Assembly: GCA_002049455.2 (NCBI GenBank)
Contig: KV918762.1
Coordinates: 620,001-684,000, forward strand
Direction of reading: 5' to 3'
Origin: Porphyra umbilicalis
Taxonomy: Eukaryota > Rhodophyta > Bangiophyceae > Bangiales > Bangiaceae
DNA: 64,000 bases
The position numbers and the translations under genes were made by a program. Below the pieces are notes generated by a model. That model worked only from the letters and a program-made list of their open reading frames with translations. It ran no database searches and was not told where the DNA came from. Positions 43,611 to 64,000 of the stretch are shown one piece after another. The stretch's first letter is position 1. The number at the start of each line of letters is the position of its first letter.

Positions 43611-43614
43611 AAAA
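43611..43614 (-). terminator. pol III terminator of tRNA-Leu
   Basis: TTTT on the minus strand, four bases after the tRNA discriminator base. It suits RNA polymerase III termination. Confidence 0.7.
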
Positions 43615-43618
43615 GATA

Positions 43619-43718
43619 TGCTGCCACTGGGATTCGAACCCAGGAGACTTGCGTCAGCAGCTCTTGAGACTGCCGCCTTTGGTGCATCCTGCGGACTAAA
43701 CCTCTCGGCCATAGCAGC
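43619..43718 (-). tRNA. tRNA-Leu(CAA) with an extra ~18-nt segment in the D-loop
   Basis: A 100-nt cloverleaf. The acceptor stem GCTGCTA pairs with TGGCAGC over 7 bp (one G-T pair), with discriminator A. The D stem is GCC/GGC. The anticodon arm GCAGT-CTCAAGA-GCTGC gives anticodon CAA (43666-43664). The long variable arm has stem GAC/GTC (type II, as in Leu). The T arm is CTGGG-TTCGAAT-CCCAG. The D-loop is 29 nt and not about 11, and it contains a hairpin GTCC-GCA-GGAT. Removing about 18 nt restores a normal 82-nt tRNA-Leu. No canonical intron at 37/38. The A-box half of the D-arm precedes the insertion and is intact. Ectopic D-loop introns are known in a red alga. Confidence 0.9.
43681..43698 (-). 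other. putative ectopic D-loop intron
   Basis: The extra segment of the tRNA-Leu D-loop; exact ends are ambiguous by one or two bases. A 4-bp hairpin (GTCC/GGAT, loop GCA) stands between GGT and ACC, which can also pair. This gives a helix-bulge-helix shape broadly like the bulge-helix motif cut by tRNA-splicing endonuclease, though with unequal bulges. Confidence 0.6.
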
Positions 43719-56690: not shown

Positions 56691-58362
56691 GGCAGCCGGA
56701 GTCCCACACCAGCGATCACAAAGAGCACGCAGTGGGCAACCAATGCGACACGTGTTGCACCTGGAGACACGCAACCCGTCGCGAACCGCAACACGGAATG
56801 CACACGGGGCGAACGCGAAAAAATAATAGGAGCAGCAAAAGCCACACAAGGTGCGGTCAGCCGGCGTGAGTCGCTGCACGTGTCAGCCCGGGCGTCCGTC
56901 CAAGCGGCTGACCTCATCACCGACCCCGTGTGTGAAGCGAAACCTTTGGAAGGACCGCTGCTGGTGTCCTCTCTGGTGGCCTACCTGTGGTGGAGAAGGT
57001 GGATGATCAAACGAGCCAATTATAACCCCGTATCTCCCTCGCCGTCACCAGAATCTCCAAATTGACGATTTGAAAGCGCCAGGGGACCGGTCCACTGTGG
57101 ATTTTCCAGGACCTGTCTCTCCGACGAAATATTGGTCCTCAATCGGGCATCCACCTGATGTGTTGCACCGACGTGACGCAAGGGACTCTCGCAGGTGATG
57201 AGCCGGGCCGCTCAATTGGAACCCCGGGCCTCGCTGAATGAGTAGGTGCGCGGGACGGTTGCTTCCGAACATGAGCCAGCGGGTCCGTTGTGGGAATTGA
57301 ATGGGCCCGACCTCAACAGGCCATCTGGGCCGCAACGAACGACGGCCAATTCCTGTGTGGGTTCTCCGTCGGCGGCCGAACGGCTTCTCTCAATGGACGT
57401 GTTGTATGACGCCACGGAATGCGCCGTGTCGTCTCCGCCGCCGCCGCCGGCTCTCAAGACGGCGCCCCGCTTCGTTGTCTCTCGTGCTCTACGGCGTGGA
57501 CCTGTTGCCCCACCGGTGGATTGGAGGACAACTTGCGTTGTGCCTTTTCCAGCGGCTCCTTCGCGGTTGACGGTCTGCGGCTGCTAGCCACTGCCACGCC
57601 CTGGCGGTCCGTGTCACGCCCGCTCCTGCTCTCGGAGGGAGACGCGGACGCGCGGGGTGGTGGGATTGGTCGTGCCGCAGATCCGTTGCAATCCGTCCTG
57701 CTGGCCACGAGAGCCGCAAAAACTGTTGAACAGCTGATCCACTTCGGCTTGCTCCACCCGGGTGCGCTCCCACCATCACTAACAGAGGCGATCATGGCGC
57801 CCAAGGTATGGCAGCGCGGGATCGGGTGTTGACCTCGAGAGTCAAGCGGCTCGTTCTTCATATTTGAACAGCATGGCAGCACTGATCGTTGTACCTATAA
57901 ATGCGCCTTGTTCAGCCACTAACGTGCGCACCTATCCGTTTGTGCTGGCTGCTGTGCACTCTTTCTTTGCTGACCATGAGTCTGCCATCCGCAGAGGACT
58001 CGGAGCACTTCGCCTGCAGCAACTTCCCCTAAGACTAGGCCCCCTACGCACCTGTCGTCGGGCAAAGCTCGCGAAAAAGTACGTACTGGCATATGCATTG
58101 CGTTTCTGTGATTTGCAATGCGTGCTCTGGCCCGCTCGGCGTGTGCAGATGCATTGTAACACATGCTTTTCATGCGTAGCGTGCGTGACGCGTGCGTCTT
58201 TCGTGCTTGAAGTCGTGACGTCGACACCCGCACCGCTTCTAACGCACTTGCATGATTGTCCGTATACTGCTGTCTTCTTGCTCCTTCTCTGATTTTCCAC
58301 TTCACTGTACGCAGCGGTGTGCTCGTTCGGGACCGCCCAAGCCTCTCTCCTCTCCGCCCCCT
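56691..58362. promoter_or_regulatory. divergent upstream region inside the 10.1-kb transposon
   Basis: Lies between the starts of the two divergent transposon genes and probably holds both promoters. Short frames only; 57250-57590 is GC-richer without a motif. Confidence 0.35.
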
Positions 58363-60488
58363 ATGCCCGCTTCAGACCCAAGTGCGGTTGATGTACAAAA
58401 AGCTACACTCCAGAACACCTCCTCGGGCGGCGTGCCGTTGATGGGCAGTGTGCGCTCCTCGAGGCCCCAGAGTGCCATTCCGTCCGCTGCTGCTCACCAG
58501 CGCGGCGCCCATCATAAGGGTGGCGGAGGTCCTGCTCGTGCAAGCAAAGCAGTGCGCAAGGTGCTTCCTGCTTCACCCTCTAGCTCAGAGTCCGAGGCGA
58601 GCCTGATAGCTGCGGAGGAGAAGGGTGACCAGGACGCTGTTCGGCAGCTCAAGCAGCGCATGGCGACGGCTGAGGAGGAGGCATCGGCCGCTGCGGCTGC
58701 TGTTATCGCTGAAGGGGACGGGTCTGAATGTTTTGCGCACCCCAACGGTCCTCTATTGCCTCCTCCTCCGCATCGTAGCCGACGCGCTGCCCAGCACGGT
58801 CCTGATGGCGGTGGCGGAGGTCCTACGGTCAAGCTGAGAACGACAGCCGGAACGGGCAAACGGCGCAAGATGAAAAGCAAGTCGGTCCAACGCTTTGCGC
58901 ACGCCTCGGACGCAAGGCGTACGGAATGCGTCCGTGCCAACATGACCGTGTCGGCGCCCGAGTCCAAGCATCTAGCTTCTTCTAAGGGCAAAAGCCGCTG
59001 ATTGTCGCGCTCCACATCAGAGAAGACCGGTGTGCAGCTGACTGACGTTATTCGAGAGGTGCTCAATGACAAGTTAATGATACTGATGCGGGAACCCGAA
59101 GTACCAGACGCCGTCTTTCTCTCGACGGGGGGGTCACGGGATTTATTCATCGGCGTCATCGTGGATTTTGCTACTGCGACGCTGGAGCGTGCCGAGGAGC
59201 TGGCTGAGACCACCGCCTTCGTACGACAAAAGGAGGCAAGGCCCCTCAGTAAGGAGGTCAAGCGCGCGGGCGCGCTCACCTCCTCATCCAAGACAAGAAG
59301 GACTCAGGACTTGCTGACCTTTTGTGGGTGCGCCCGCTCGTCGGAACGTTCGACGCTCGGGCGCTCTATTTGGACCGCGTGGTCGGCAGCCACTCGTTGC
59401 AACGAGTTCCCTGTCATCGACAACGATGTTGCCGAAGAAGAGCAAGCCCAGCATCGGGCTCTGTGGTGGTTGCACGGCCGCCGCTACATCAAGACGGACG
59501 CTGCACGCAGGGGCGTTTACGATGCCATGCTGTACTACTTCAGCCGCACGGGTGCCGGTAACAGCTGCCACACGAACAGCTACAAAAAGGGGCGGCTGGT
59601 GATCAAGGTCCATCTCAGCCAATTGGCTTCCGTGCTTACAAAGGTGAGTCCGGGCGCCACGAGCGCACTTCCTATTGCATCTCACGACATCTTAATGGTG
59701 CATTCCACACGCCACGGGTACGCAGTGTGTGATTGCAGCGCGCTGCAGGTTTTTGTAACGCATTGCTCTCGTATCCACGCACTGCGCAGAAACTGACGCC
59801 TCGAACTCTACTGTCACGTGTTGCGCTGCGTTATGCATGCATGACGACACCTGGTGAATCCACCCAGATCCGCAACCACCGGTGGCTTCAAGCCTACACC
59901 AAGGCCGTCATCTGCGCCATAAACTCAGGCGTGACACCTTCGCATCGCGCTGCTTGGTGCGAGGCGCTCGCGTGGCTGCGCGCGGAGGCCAAGAAGTAAC
60001 AGTGCATTTGGGTGCGTATGTTCAAGACGGACAAAGACGATGAGAACTACGCAACAGTTAACGACCCCGAATCTTCCGCAAGGCCCGCCCCCAAGGCGCG
60101 CAATGGACGGCAGCTGAAAAAGCGTGGTAGCGGCGCATCCAAGGGCACTCTGATGCAGGCTCTCGCCCTGATCCTTGACAAGTCCATTCAGGAGGAGGAC
60201 GAGGTGGACGACGATGACGTACGGATTGTGGTCGGCCACCCGCAAGCAAAGGGGCGCAGCGTCAGTGACGCATGTCGCGCTCGTCTGCGCGGCGCAATGG
60301 GCGGCGGGCCGTCCAGGACCGCTTCGAACAAGGCCCCGGGCAAAGGGTTTAAGAAGGAGAAGCGCAGCCGGAGCCCCAGCGTGGAGGCCGCGACCCCGTC
60401 CGACGTCGGCAGTGAATACGAGCACTCGAGCGCCGGAACTGGTGAAGACGATGAAGACAAGGCCCTACCATACGTATATCGTGAGTAG
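58363..60488 (+). pseudogene. partner gene of the 10.1-kb transposon, function unknown
   Basis: ATG at 58363. The first ~210 codons are Ser/Ala/Lys-rich with RQLKQRMATAEEEASAAAAA (coiled coil) and a basic GKRRKMKSKSVQR block, ending in an in-frame TGA (58999). The same frame continues (GVQLTDVIREVLNDKLMILM, DLFIGVIVDFATATLERAEE). After a frame change it reads RALWWLHGRRYIKTDAARRG up to a splice-donor-like AAAG-GTGAGT at about 59643. A later segment (59733-59998) reads CNALLSYPRTAQKL and NHRWLQAYTKAVICAINSG, then an in-frame TAA and an acidic/basic tail (KSIQEEDEVDDDDVRIV, FKKEKRSRS) to 60488. WLxAYTKxxxxxIN and RYIKxxxARRG blocks suggest an alpha-helical protein-binding region. No family recognised. 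Its place suggests a tnpA-like accessory protein (inference). Confidence 0.5.
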
Positions 60489-61789
60489 GTGTTTTTACAG
60501 GTGTAAGTGTCTGAATTCCCGGACCCGTAGGCAGCAAGGCGGCTGGCACCAACACCCAAATGAACAATTGAGTAGGTAGCCGTGGGTATCTATCAATTCC
60601 AAACGACAGCGGAGTTAAAGACAGAAGAGCGCGCCATTCGAATGGACGCATCGCATATTCCTGTGATGCATTACGTTCATCATTTCGCCACCGTTCTTGG
60701 ACCTGGGAGGAGCCCTGTCGTCTGTCGCCAGATTGGTCTTGCGTGTCTGGGGCGCCACGTGGCCCTCTAGTGGGCTCCTTGTCATTACGCGTCCCATACG
60801 TTCTTACCTCTCTCACGTCTTCTTGCGACTGGGCCTTGCACTTGCCTGTTGCCTCTGCTCCTGCTCTGTGCCGGCGGACCGTTGTACCTACAGTACAGAA
60901 CGCACTTTCACGCGGACTGTTCTTTCTGGTTGCTGACCGAGTGGCCCGCCTGACATTCTGCGGGAGGTACTTTCTCTGCGCTCCTTCGAGCTTGATTTGC
61001 TGCTGTGCTTCGCAGCGCAAGTTTCGTGTTATTCAAGTTTTTCTGCAATTGGAATAAGTCGGCAGTCATCCGGAAAGGGTGGTGATATTCGCTAGTCCCC
61101 CCCCATCTCTGCAAGCGCACGCGTTGGCCTCGCTGTACCCTTGTGCCTCACCTTGAGAATACGCGTGTAGAGTTTCGCACCCGTCCGACACCTTGCCGTA
61201 CCCCAAGCTCAATCTTACCATTCAGAATGTTTTGACACGGGGTCATGTAGAACGAAATATTCGTCACTCTTGCCAAGCTCGCCCACGCGTCGAAAACAAA
61301 CTGGGACTCGTTCATTCACATATCCGTCCGAAGTACTTCAGGCATGCGACACCCGAACTGAATCCTACTTCGCTTTCCGGAGATACACCTCCCAATCCAA
61401 ATATTTGGTTGCAATTCACTTGCACCGTCCACACCGACCAAACGTGCTGGCTTGGGCCACCTGCCCCATATCGCCGGCATACCCATTTGATTTTGTTAAT
61501 AACTGTAGACTTACAACGACGTTTACCGTCTAGGTCCAGAGATACGGTTCCCAATCCAAATATTGGGTTTCATTTCACTTGTACATTGCTTTCTAAAAAA
61601 ACAAACGTTCTCCTTGCTGCGCAGTTGGCGTCGTTGGCAACTTTGCTTGCCACTGCTTCCTGCGGCGCGGAAAGGACGAACGTCCTTGGTTTCGCCGTTG
61701 TCAGAGTAGAAGCAAGGGGGTGCTCTGCCTTCCCACGGCTTCTACACTGCTACAGCTGGTAAGATCCAGTAGATATAATAACCATATAC
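60489..61789. other. right non-coding arm of the 10.1-kb transposon
   Basis: Contains two imperfect copies of CCAATCCAAATATTTGGTT-like sequence about 160 bp apart (near 61392 and 61551). 61640-61789 directly precedes the 5.8S copy and may be ITS1-derived, but I cannot show it. Confidence 0.45.
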
Positions 61790-61946
61790 AACTCTTAACG
61801 GTGGGTATCTCGGTTCTCGTAACGATGAAGAACGAAGCAAACTGCGATACGTAATGCGAATTGCAGAACTTCGTGAATCATCAAATCTTTGAACGCAAGT
61901 TGCGCTCACAGCACATTTGCTGTGAGTGCCGGATAAATGGACGTAA
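61790..61946 (+). rRNA. 5.8S rRNA copy within a DNA transposon
   Basis: Starts AACTCTTAACGGTGGGTATC and contains the universal 5.8S blocks CGATGAAGAACG, TGCGATACGTAATGCGAATT, GCAGAACTTCGTGAATCATC and TTTGAACGCAAGTTGCGCTC. These are followed by a GC-clamp hairpin (CTCACAGCAC...GTGCTGTGAG type), matching the 3' helix of 5.8S. About 157 nt. Several conserved positions are changed (for example AACGAAGC for AACGCAGC), so it is probably a decayed or relict copy and not a working rDNA unit. No 18S or 28S is attached. Confidence 0.88.
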
Positions 61947-62038
61947 CACACATTGCAGAGCTTGGTATTGCGATTTATGTGTCACAGCACGCCTTGTGCA
62001 CGCCTCGTGCACGCATCCCTCATTGATTTTGCATGACG

Positions 62039-62080
62039 TGGGTATTGCGTCCGTAACACGTTGTGGCACAACCGCCGACG
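62039..62080 (-). repeat. right TIR of the 10.1-kb transposon
   Basis: Inverted match to 51992-52033. Just inside it, GCGTGCAC-type 11-bp direct repeats (61989-62015) look like subterminal transposase-binding sites. Confidence 0.85.
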
Positions 62081-62338
62081 ATAAAAGAAGACAACCAGGC
62101 ATGCCTAGCCCTGGTCAACAACCCCGAGGCCACGGGGCGCACCAAGCACGTTGATGTCGCCTACCACATGGCGCGCGACTATGTGGCGCGCGGGGAGGTC
62201 GCGTTCTACTTCCTTGCCGGCGCGGAGATGCCCGCGGATGGGCTGACCAAGCCACTGCCGTCCCCTACGTTTGCCAACTTCTGCAACGCTATGGGTGTTG
62301 GTGCCGACTTATGCGGGCCCGACCATCCGCGGTGTTAA
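62081..62338 (+). pseudogene. copia pol, C-terminal RNase H part after the insertion
   Basis: Resumes copia pol with KEDNQACLALVNNPEA, GRTKHVDVAYHMARDYV and MPADGLTKPLPSP, the usual end of copia RNase H, and stops at 62336-62338. It is in frame with the part ending at 51991. Confidence 0.88.
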
Positions 62339-62687
62339 CGCTAACTACGAGCCGGCGATCAACCCCCTCGCGGCGTGGTGGTCTTACTGCGACCGGGGCG
62401 GGTCGACTTGGCCGGCGGGGGCTGGCCTGGGGTCGCAGTATTGACACAGCGACAGGGAGGGGTTGAATTTGATCAGTGGCGGTCGGCTCGTGACACAGCG
62501 CTTACAACACGACAGGGCAGACTGTGATTTTGGTGAAATTCTGGGTTCGGACTCGGTCGGAACGATCGCTATAAACTTTCGATCGGATCGATCGTTTCGA
62601 GTATGACTGAACTCGGACTGCGGAAAAGGAGAATTTGGCTGAATTAGGTTTTCCGATTCAGCGCTGAGCAGTACTGCAGCAGATCGG
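62339..62687. other. copia 3' non-coding region
   Basis: Between the pol stop and the tandem repeat; no frame or motif recognised. Confidence 0.45.
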
Positions 62688-63030
62688 GGCCCGGTCCGCT
62701 GCTGCAGTACAGCGGACAGCTGCACTACAGCAGATCGGAGGCCGGTTCGCGGCTGCAGTACCGCCGACAGCGGGGGCGCGAGCGGCCCTGCAGCCGCTCG
62801 GCGCCCGGTCTGTGTCTGTGGTACCAGGGACGGCGGTACTGCAGCCTCTCAGGGCCTCGTCTGCGGCTGCAGTACCGCCGACAGCGGGGGCGCGAGTGGT
62901 ACCGCAGCCGCTCGGGGCCCGGTGTGTGGCTGCGGTATCGCGGACAGCGGGTGCGCGAGTGGTACTGCAGCAGCTCGGGGCCCAGTCTGTGGCTCCAGTA
63001 CCGCGGACGGCTGTACTGCAGTAGATCGGG
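62688..63030. repeat. tandem repeat between copia pol and 3' LTR
   Basis: Six to seven imperfect units of about 50-66 bp containing CTCGGGGCCCGGT and GGCTGCAGTACCGCCGACAG, with many CTGCAG sites. It expands the 3' untranslated part of copia. Confidence 0.75.
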
Positions 63031-63102
63031 CACCAGTTTTCAGCTGTACAGCAGAATGGAATTGGCTCGTGTACTTACTTACCGCTGCCGCCTTGCGGGG
63101 AG

Positions 63103-63161
63103 TGTTGAGTCTTGCTCAGCCAGTCCGCACGGTCTGTTTTTCTTGTATTGCACTCCACAAC
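63103..63161 (+). repeat. copia 3' LTR fragment
   Basis: TGTTGAGTCTTGCTCAGC..., like the start of the 5' LTR at 47577 for about 50 bp, then directly joined to family B LTR sequence. Confidence 0.65.
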
Positions 63162-63560
63162 ATTGCCTTTGTGGCGTGCCGGTGCGGCTTGAGAGCGCCC
63201 GCGGCGCATCTGTCCGGGTGAGCTCGTCGGATTGTCTGGAGCTGTAAGCGGATCGTGTCAATCCAGATTGGGTAGTTTCATGCAGTGGAGGGAATTTTGT
63301 GCATCGTATGTATTTGGCAGCGCGGGACCGGGCCAACTAGTGGTCCCAGCCCCCGCGCAGCGATTTCCGCCATTCAAGGACAAAGAGCGACGACGGTGGG
63401 AGACACCGTCGTCGCCGGCAAGTAAACCGTGCCTGTTTGTCTTGGCGTTTCGGTCGGCCTGACTTCCTGGACCTCGAGTCCGATATCGGGTGACGCACGA
63501 GCGGCTAGGTCGGCCGGTACTTCCCTCCTCTTAGAGGTGATCGCGATTTATGGTACAACA

Positions 63561-64000
63561 GTTAGGTCGGCCTTTGTGGCGGCCCAAGCAGCGCCTAAAA
63601 TGTTGGGTCTTGCACCGACTCGAGAGAGGCCCATGCCCCTAAGAGAAACCAGGGGTGTCGTTGAAGCGGTTTCTACTCACATCAGCAGAATGCATGCGCT
63701 CGAGCTGCCTTGTTGTCAATCACCTTGGACAGCAGGGCACACACTTCCCAGAAACGCCCACACGCCGCCGAACGCGGCTCGTGCAGCTCCACGTATGTGC
63801 TTTTCTTCTCCATGACCTGCCACTGCTGACAGCCCCACTTGAGCAAGCTGGTGAAGTACTAATTGAACGCCGCCCGAACGACTCAATGGGCAAAATTCAA
63901 ACAGCTGAAGGGGATGCACATGGCGTCGGCTATAAAAACGTTCACCTATCACAGGCAGTGGCGATGCCGCCAGTGTTTGAGCGACCGCATGCGAGTCGAC
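63561..64000. other. flank of the nested LTR, no gene seen
   Basis: Starts with GTTAG after the LTR end. Short frames only. Confidence 0.4.

Follow-up and report, generated by a model that had tools for sequence, protein, structure and literature searches.

Introns outside the canonical position 37/38 have been described in nuclear tRNA genes of the red alga Cyanidioschyzon merolae, where ectopic introns carry a bulge–helix–bulge (BHB) motif (Soma 2007, 2013, as summarized in passages of PMC3978253, PMC4090602, and PMC9602550). Those passages also describe a permuted C. merolae tRNA with its D-loop junction at 20/21. In the nucleomorph of Guillardia theta, introns of 3–24 nt occupy non-canonical D and T positions, and their excision was confirmed by RT-PCR (Kawach 2005, via passages of PMC4090602 and PMC3978253). 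Crenarchaeota have BHB introns at many sites, including 20/21 and 59/60 (in part of PMC4090602), a motif likewise seen here; the archaeal enzyme has a different subunit make-up, whereas the proteins encoded here are of the eukaryotic Sen2/Sen34 type. Canonical eukaryotic introns at 37/38 presumably rely on the same enzyme but occupy another position, and the tRNA-Leu(CAA) gene considered here has no intron at that site. Yeast tRNA-Leu(CAA) does have a 37/38 intron. Within the portions of the open-access PMC literature available to us, C. merolae is the only free-living red alga for which we found nuclear tRNA introns at ectopic sites reported.

We analysed a tRNA-Leu(CAA) gene in the window, by which we mean the whole 64-kb stretch of DNA (GC 0.63). 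The assembly searched comprises 83.8 Mb in 665 contigs, and its plastid contig encodes argB, trpA, and ilvB, which fits a red alga. The features of the gene are as follows.

43619..43718 (−): tRNA-Leu(CAA) gene, type II, 100 nt including discriminator A73 (43619); RF00005, 45.8 bits; three intact genomic copies
43697..43718 (−): exon 1, comprising the acceptor 5′ strand, T8-G9, D-stem GCC, and D-loop GAGAGGTTTA; read from the sequence, with GCCGAGCGGTCTAAGGC of Leu(CAG) for comparison
43679..43696 (−): putative D-loop intron, 18 nt, GTCCGCAGGATGCACCAA; registers tested, and ARAGORN reads the sequence without it as a clean tRNA-Leu(caa) of 82 nt
43619..43678 (−): exon 2, comprising A, D-stem 3′ strand GGC, anticodon arm, variable arm, T-arm, and acceptor 3′ strand; sequence and Infernal alignment
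43664..43666 (−): anticodon CAA in loop CTCAAGA, without a 37/38 intron; sequence, Infernal, and ARAGORN
43699..43702 (−): putative relaxed BHB central helix, exon strand GGUU; 3/4 pairs with the intron end
43681..43684 (−): putative relaxed BHB central helix, intron strand CACC (UACC in the other two copies); pairing test
43701..43711 (−): A-box TGGCCGAGAGG, not broken by the insert; pattern match
43630..43640 (−): B-box GGTTCGAATCC; pattern match
43611..43614 (−): TTTT, Pol III terminator-like (TTTTTT and TTTT at the other copies); sequence

The sequence-only reading had described a type II tRNA-Leu with all arms intact, an unbroken A-box core, a following TTTT, an uninterrupted anticodon loop, and a D-loop enlarged by about 18 nt, and each of these elements was recovered. 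With lax filters, Infernal placed a tRNA (RF00005) at 43619–43718 on the minus strand with 45.8 bits against a gathering cut-off of 29 (E 7.8e-9) and assigned the surplus letters to the D-loop. Between GCC and GGC, the D-loop measures 29 nt, compared with 11 nt (GCCGAGCGGTCTAAGGC) in four intronless Leu(CAG) paralogs (two each on C350 and C382). Removal of 18 nt yields GCCGAGAGGTTTAAGGC, called by ARAGORN as an 82-nt tRNA-Leu(caa) with no intron; the D-arm of this predicted mature form contains GGTTTAAGGC, has a fully paired stem, and matches intronless Leu(CAG) of the same genome in length and form. Shifting the intron register by one base, to 43680–43697, gives an identical spliced product. 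The insert in the Leu(CAA) D-loop is thus real, and it interrupts a nuclear tRNA gene that is intact in all other respects, at a site other than 37/38. The proposed small hairpin, GUCC-GCA-GGAU closed by GGU/ACC, appears in the minimum-energy fold. Taken over its full length, that fold shows no exceptional stability (z −0.95; as good a fold was reached by 36 of 200 shuffles), and fold stability was dropped as an argument for the insert.

Three intact copies of Leu(CAA) were found in the genome, on C2 (the window), C493, and C73, and all three have the insert. The C493 and C73 inserts differ from that of the window by one and two letters, and the other 81 letters by one each; among the three copies, 1–2 of 18 insert letters and 1–2 of 81 letters elsewhere differ. 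Within the small hairpin of the insert, one of these changes replaces G·U by G-C. Both boxes are intact in every copy apart from one B-box letter in C493, and the T-runs are present. In six comparisons of 80-nt flanks, the 3′ sides of C2 and C493 and the 5′ sides of C493 and C73 were alike beyond 500 shuffles, while the remaining four were not clearly alike, being matched by 21 to 327 of 500 shuffles. Since the gene and insert are kept while the flanks have mostly diverged yet remain partly alike, we regard the copies as old duplicates; and since two further loci have the same gene and insert, the insert is not a chance feature of one locus. A fourth copy (C96:80550–80650) is degenerate, although the greater part of the insert is still present in it. 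We also searched the genome for a normal tRNA-Leu(CAA) gene, which would have spoken against an intron: a DNA search and a pattern search using the usual boxes found no intronless Leu(CAA). That pattern search gave six matches, of which only the C2 and C73 copies are Leu(CAA); C493 was missed because its B-box differs by one letter.

The Leu(CAA) insert belongs to a larger group of predicted D-loop and T-loop introns found across the genome. Judged by inspection, D-loop inserts near position 20/20a/21 occur in 24 tRNA genes, which represent 12 anticodons: Val(CAC) (4), Leu(CAA), Arg(ACG), Trp(CCA), and Ser(AGA) (3 each), Tyr(GTA) (2), and Asn(GTT), Arg(TCG), Arg(CCG), Lys(CTT), Ser(CGA), and Ser(TGA) (1 each). 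T-loop inserts occur in seven genes (Ser(AGA), 3; Asn, Cys, Ser(TGA), and Leu(TAA), 1 each). Some genes combine several, such as the Tyr gene on C272 (D and 37/38) and the three Ser(AGA) genes (D and T), and canonical 37/38 introns were also seen by eye in Tyr, eMet, Gly, Lys(TTT), and Ser(CGA), among others. The count of 24 draws on a DNA search, pattern searches, RF00005, and short retrieved sequences; it was judged by eye, is non-exhaustive, and was not blind. Candidates at C11:445965 (L053), C27:103150 and C49:177288 (L102 and L103), C7:417123 (L115), and L054/L056 were neither assigned nor counted. The four pattern searches also catch repeats and chance matches (14, 124, 93, and 19 matches versus 0, 0, 25, and 20 for reversed-pattern controls), and only matches that read as cloverleaf tRNAs were used. 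The patterns were suited to tRNAs other than Asn and Cys, whose boxes differ, and the argument from necessity given below accordingly leaves these two aside.

Such genes are easily overlooked. The window gene was absent from the outputs of a fast-filter Rfam scan of the 64 kb and of ARAGORN, which makes no call on the unspliced gene unless its intron mode is on. It was also absent from a genome-wide RF00005 search in which 63 of 1261 candidates were scored; that search recovered the D-insert Asn and Arg(TCG) genes and missed all of the Leu(CAA), Trp, and Tyr genes found by other means. Standard tRNA annotation thus misses many insert-bearing genes of this kind.

Several tRNA-like sequences were noted alongside these surveys. 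The pattern search with 124 matches returned mostly two repeat families, about 100 of the 124 being matches listed. Most of the listed matches belong to a tRNA-like repeat, TAGCCTAGTGGGAAGTAGGCACC...GGTTCGAACCC, which occurs on many contigs (e.g., L068–L070, L079–L083, and L089–L092), forms rows with a spacing of about 4.8 kb in some places, and is possibly a tRNA-derived part of a transposon. Degenerate copies of a tRNA-like GACAATATAGTTCAGTTGGTCAGA... lie at L040, L043, L045, L048, and L049; some end at the T-arm, and they are perhaps organelle-derived or a short interspersed element. Arg(ACG) and Trp(CCA) genes (L055, L058, L060, L064, and L065) have in common TGGCAAAATTGG...CGCGC, so that once the insert is taken out the D-stem keeps only two clear pairs. 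Elsewhere in the window, a full-length 5.8S rRNA match (125 bits) lies at 61790–61943 on the plus strand; no SSU or LSU rRNA was detected around it (57000–64000), even at E 0.001. Sequence resembling the end of a copia-type polyprotein was seen by eye near 62200, 3′ of the match, which is perhaps a dispersed copy beside a retroelement.

Paralogs lacking the insert provide a direct comparison. A Lys(CTT) gene on C163 is identical to the intronless gene on C425 at 73 of 73 letters, save for a 15-nt D-loop insert in the former, and C216 has another two intronless copies, each with a single-letter difference. The 11-nt D insert of Ser(CGA) on C60 is absent from its sister genes on C53, C141, and C172. 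Paralog pairs with and without the segment therefore identify these segments as insertions and fix their splice points. The two Asn(GTT) genes found have only a D insert and only a T-loop insert, respectively.

Other sister copies share near-identical exons while their introns differ strongly, as in four Val(CAC) genes, three Ser(AGA) genes, and two kinds in Trp. In the Ser(AGA) genes L108, L109, and L110 (on C242, C260, and C290), both the D- and T-loop inserts differ from gene to gene, which suggests intron turnover. Some of this variety is divergence, because two of six Val(CAC) pairs and one of three Ser(AGA) pairs (the C260 and C290 D inserts) are still alike beyond shuffles, which counts against replacement of the introns.

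A splice signal was looked for at the predicted cleavage sites. We compared the four exon letters before the 5′ bulge with the four intron letters before the 3′ bulge, with cuts placed after the second bulge letter. The sample was the 19 of 24 D introns with a reference mature D-arm; the three Arg(ACG) genes and Arg(CCG) had no reference, and the second Trp copy on C147 is a duplicate. Mature references for Val, Tyr, Ser(AGA/TGA), and Leu came from related tRNAs and that for Arg(TCG) was set by pairing in the D-stem. If more than one register led to an identical product, the best-scoring register was used, both for the real introns and for the shuffles. At the set splice points, 12 of 19 introns form all four central pairs, compared with a mean of 1.49 in intron shuffles (0 of 20000 reached 12), although two of the 12, both Trp, are partly circular, as their mature forms were picked after the BHB scan had been inspected. 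At least three of four pairs form in 18 of 19 (shuffle mean 7.4; 0 of 20000). The signal vanishes when the 5′ site is shifted by 1–3 nt (0 of 19 at 4/4) and falls to 0–2 of 19 when the 3′ site is moved by −4 to +3. Pairing also follows the exon (TTGG/CCAA, GTGG/CCAC, GCGG/TCGC, GTCG/CGAT, and GTTG/CAAC): a gene's own strands pair fully in 12 of 19 cases, and strands swapped between genes with different exon strands in 11 of 280. Below 4/4 are Arg(TCG) at 2/4, and Asn, Ser(AGA) on C260, and Ser(TGA) at 3/4. All three Leu(CAA) copies, which share one intron, also form 3/4, with GGUU facing CACC or UACC and unpaired letters opposite the bulges. The sole strict 4-bp candidate in a scan of Leu(CAA) would give a non-tRNA D-arm and was rejected, leaving the relaxed form. 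T-loop introns give a weaker signal: three of seven pair at 4/4 (39 of 20000 shuffles) and six of seven at 3/4 or better (65 of 20000).

Three putative endonuclease subunits are encoded in the genome: a Sen34-like protein (Sen34 as best solved match, E 1.7e-16), a Sen2-like protein (best solved match Sen2, E 2.5e-10), and a Sen54-like protein (E 2.7e-13). A single profile search of the draft assembly, with only prokaryotes as control genomes, gave no match to Sen15. A query with Trp-gene DNA returned three Trp genes, each with a D insert, plus three Arg(ACG) genes; both Tyr genes found likewise have D inserts. We know of no alternative nuclear anticodon for the Trp and Tyr codons, so if the assembly and searches are near complete, their inserts must be removed or tolerated for life. 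With all three Trp genes found bearing the insert, splicing is probably required. UUG codons could also be read through wobble pairing by Leu(UAA), which means that the cell does not strictly depend on Leu(CAA); the necessity argument from Leu(CAA) is for this reason weak, and Trp and Tyr were used instead.

We consider the Leu(CAA) insert to be an 18-nt nuclear tRNA intron at about 20b/21 that would be cut by Sen2/Sen34 to give an 82-nt tRNA-Leu(CAA), with a probability of roughly 0.9. Pol III would transcribe the whole gene starting from the intact A-box, which stays whole because the D introns sit directly 3′ of G18-G19. In the precursor, the D-loop around G18-G19 would pair with the 3′ end of the intron to form a bulge–helix–bulge-like element, the Sen2/Sen34 endonuclease would cut both bulges, and exon ligation would produce a normal tRNA. 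Transcription, cutting, ligation, and the exact cut site in Leu(CAA) are what we infer from the DNA. The ectopic D-loop intron proposed in the sequence-only reading accordingly gains support from the paralogs, the 23 further D-insert genes, the BHB signal, and the Sen2, Sen34, and Sen54 genes. Its precedent, C. merolae, holds as a reported case, but not as the only one, given the G. theta nucleomorph.

If the insert were instead retained, the gene would make a tRNA of 100 nt whose D-loop is enlarged, unless these copies are dead. According to a passage of PMC4090602, a eukaryotic tRNA gene with a short insert in the D- or T-arm is usually deemed a pseudogene when it is one of many copies, and the Leu(CAA) BHB is of the relaxed kind. 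Against this, the insert is present in all three intact copies, whose boxes and T-runs are kept despite largely diverged flanks, every Trp, Tyr, and Asn gene found has a D or T insert, and the pairing peak falls on the splice points, which together make retention improbable. A different placement is suggested by ARAGORN, whose intron mode puts an intron of 19 nt into the anticodon stem (31/32) of all three copies, GCAG..GCAG words permitting this second parse. It would leave a C-T mismatch in the D-stem (GCC/GTC), a G·G at 31–39, and a D-arm unlike that of Leu(CAG), whereas the D-loop alternative pairs fully and matches the site used in other genes; the 31/32 intron was rejected on its D-stem and anticodon-stem mismatches and is very unlikely.

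The segment could also be a true D-loop intron that is removed by an activity other than Sen2/Sen34. In passages of PMC3978253, many Guillardia nucleomorph introns are said to lack a defined BHB, and PMC4090602, in part, describes the splicing route of those introns as unknown. In the present genome, 12 of 19 introns repeat the BHB geometry at bulge positions 2/3, and the catalytic subunits are encoded, so we give removal by another enzyme hardly any weight.

The closest parallel is C. merolae, with which this genome shares introns in the D-, anticodon-, and T-arms, some genes with several, and BHB or relaxed BHB motifs, as far as the available passages on that alga describe them. Sen2, Sen34, and Sen54 were found in both and Sen15 in neither (passages of PMC4090602 and PMC3978253). 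Unlike C. merolae as portrayed there, the genome studied here is much larger, with multi-copy tRNA genes and coexisting copies with and without introns. The D introns here lie near 20/20a/21, just outside a whole A-box, whereas the same partial sources place one at 12/13 in C. merolae Ile(UAU). With the G. theta nucleomorph, the shared traits in the passages at hand are short introns, non-canonical D and T sites, and red-algal origin; that system is a reduced endosymbiont nucleus in which many introns are described without a defined BHB, whereas here the nuclear genome is of full size and the BHB signal is clear.

Together, these findings concern a known type of intron, and their interest lies chiefly in its breadth, in the insert-free paralog pairs, and in the apparent intron turnover. 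The sequence comparisons indicate that ectopic tRNA introns are probably wider in red algae than C. merolae and a cryptophyte nucleomorph, and suggest that they are common in a probably multicellular red alga. The system makes it testable how the eukaryotic Sen enzyme recognizes sites far from 37/38 and whether the lack of Sen15 accompanies that freedom; coexisting copies with and without introns likewise make the age of ectopic introns, ancient or newly gained, accessible to testing. A broader proposal, which we hold tentatively and consider somewhat short of even odds, is that D-site introns are rapidly gained, replaced, or rewritten, as they differ among the Val, Ser(AGA), and Trp genes and occur in a single copy in Lys and Ser(CGA), and that Trp and Tyr codons, and perhaps those for Asn and Cys, would be unreadable without ectopic splicing. 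If this is true, the trait would not be peculiar to C. merolae but would trace back to the ancestor of red algae.
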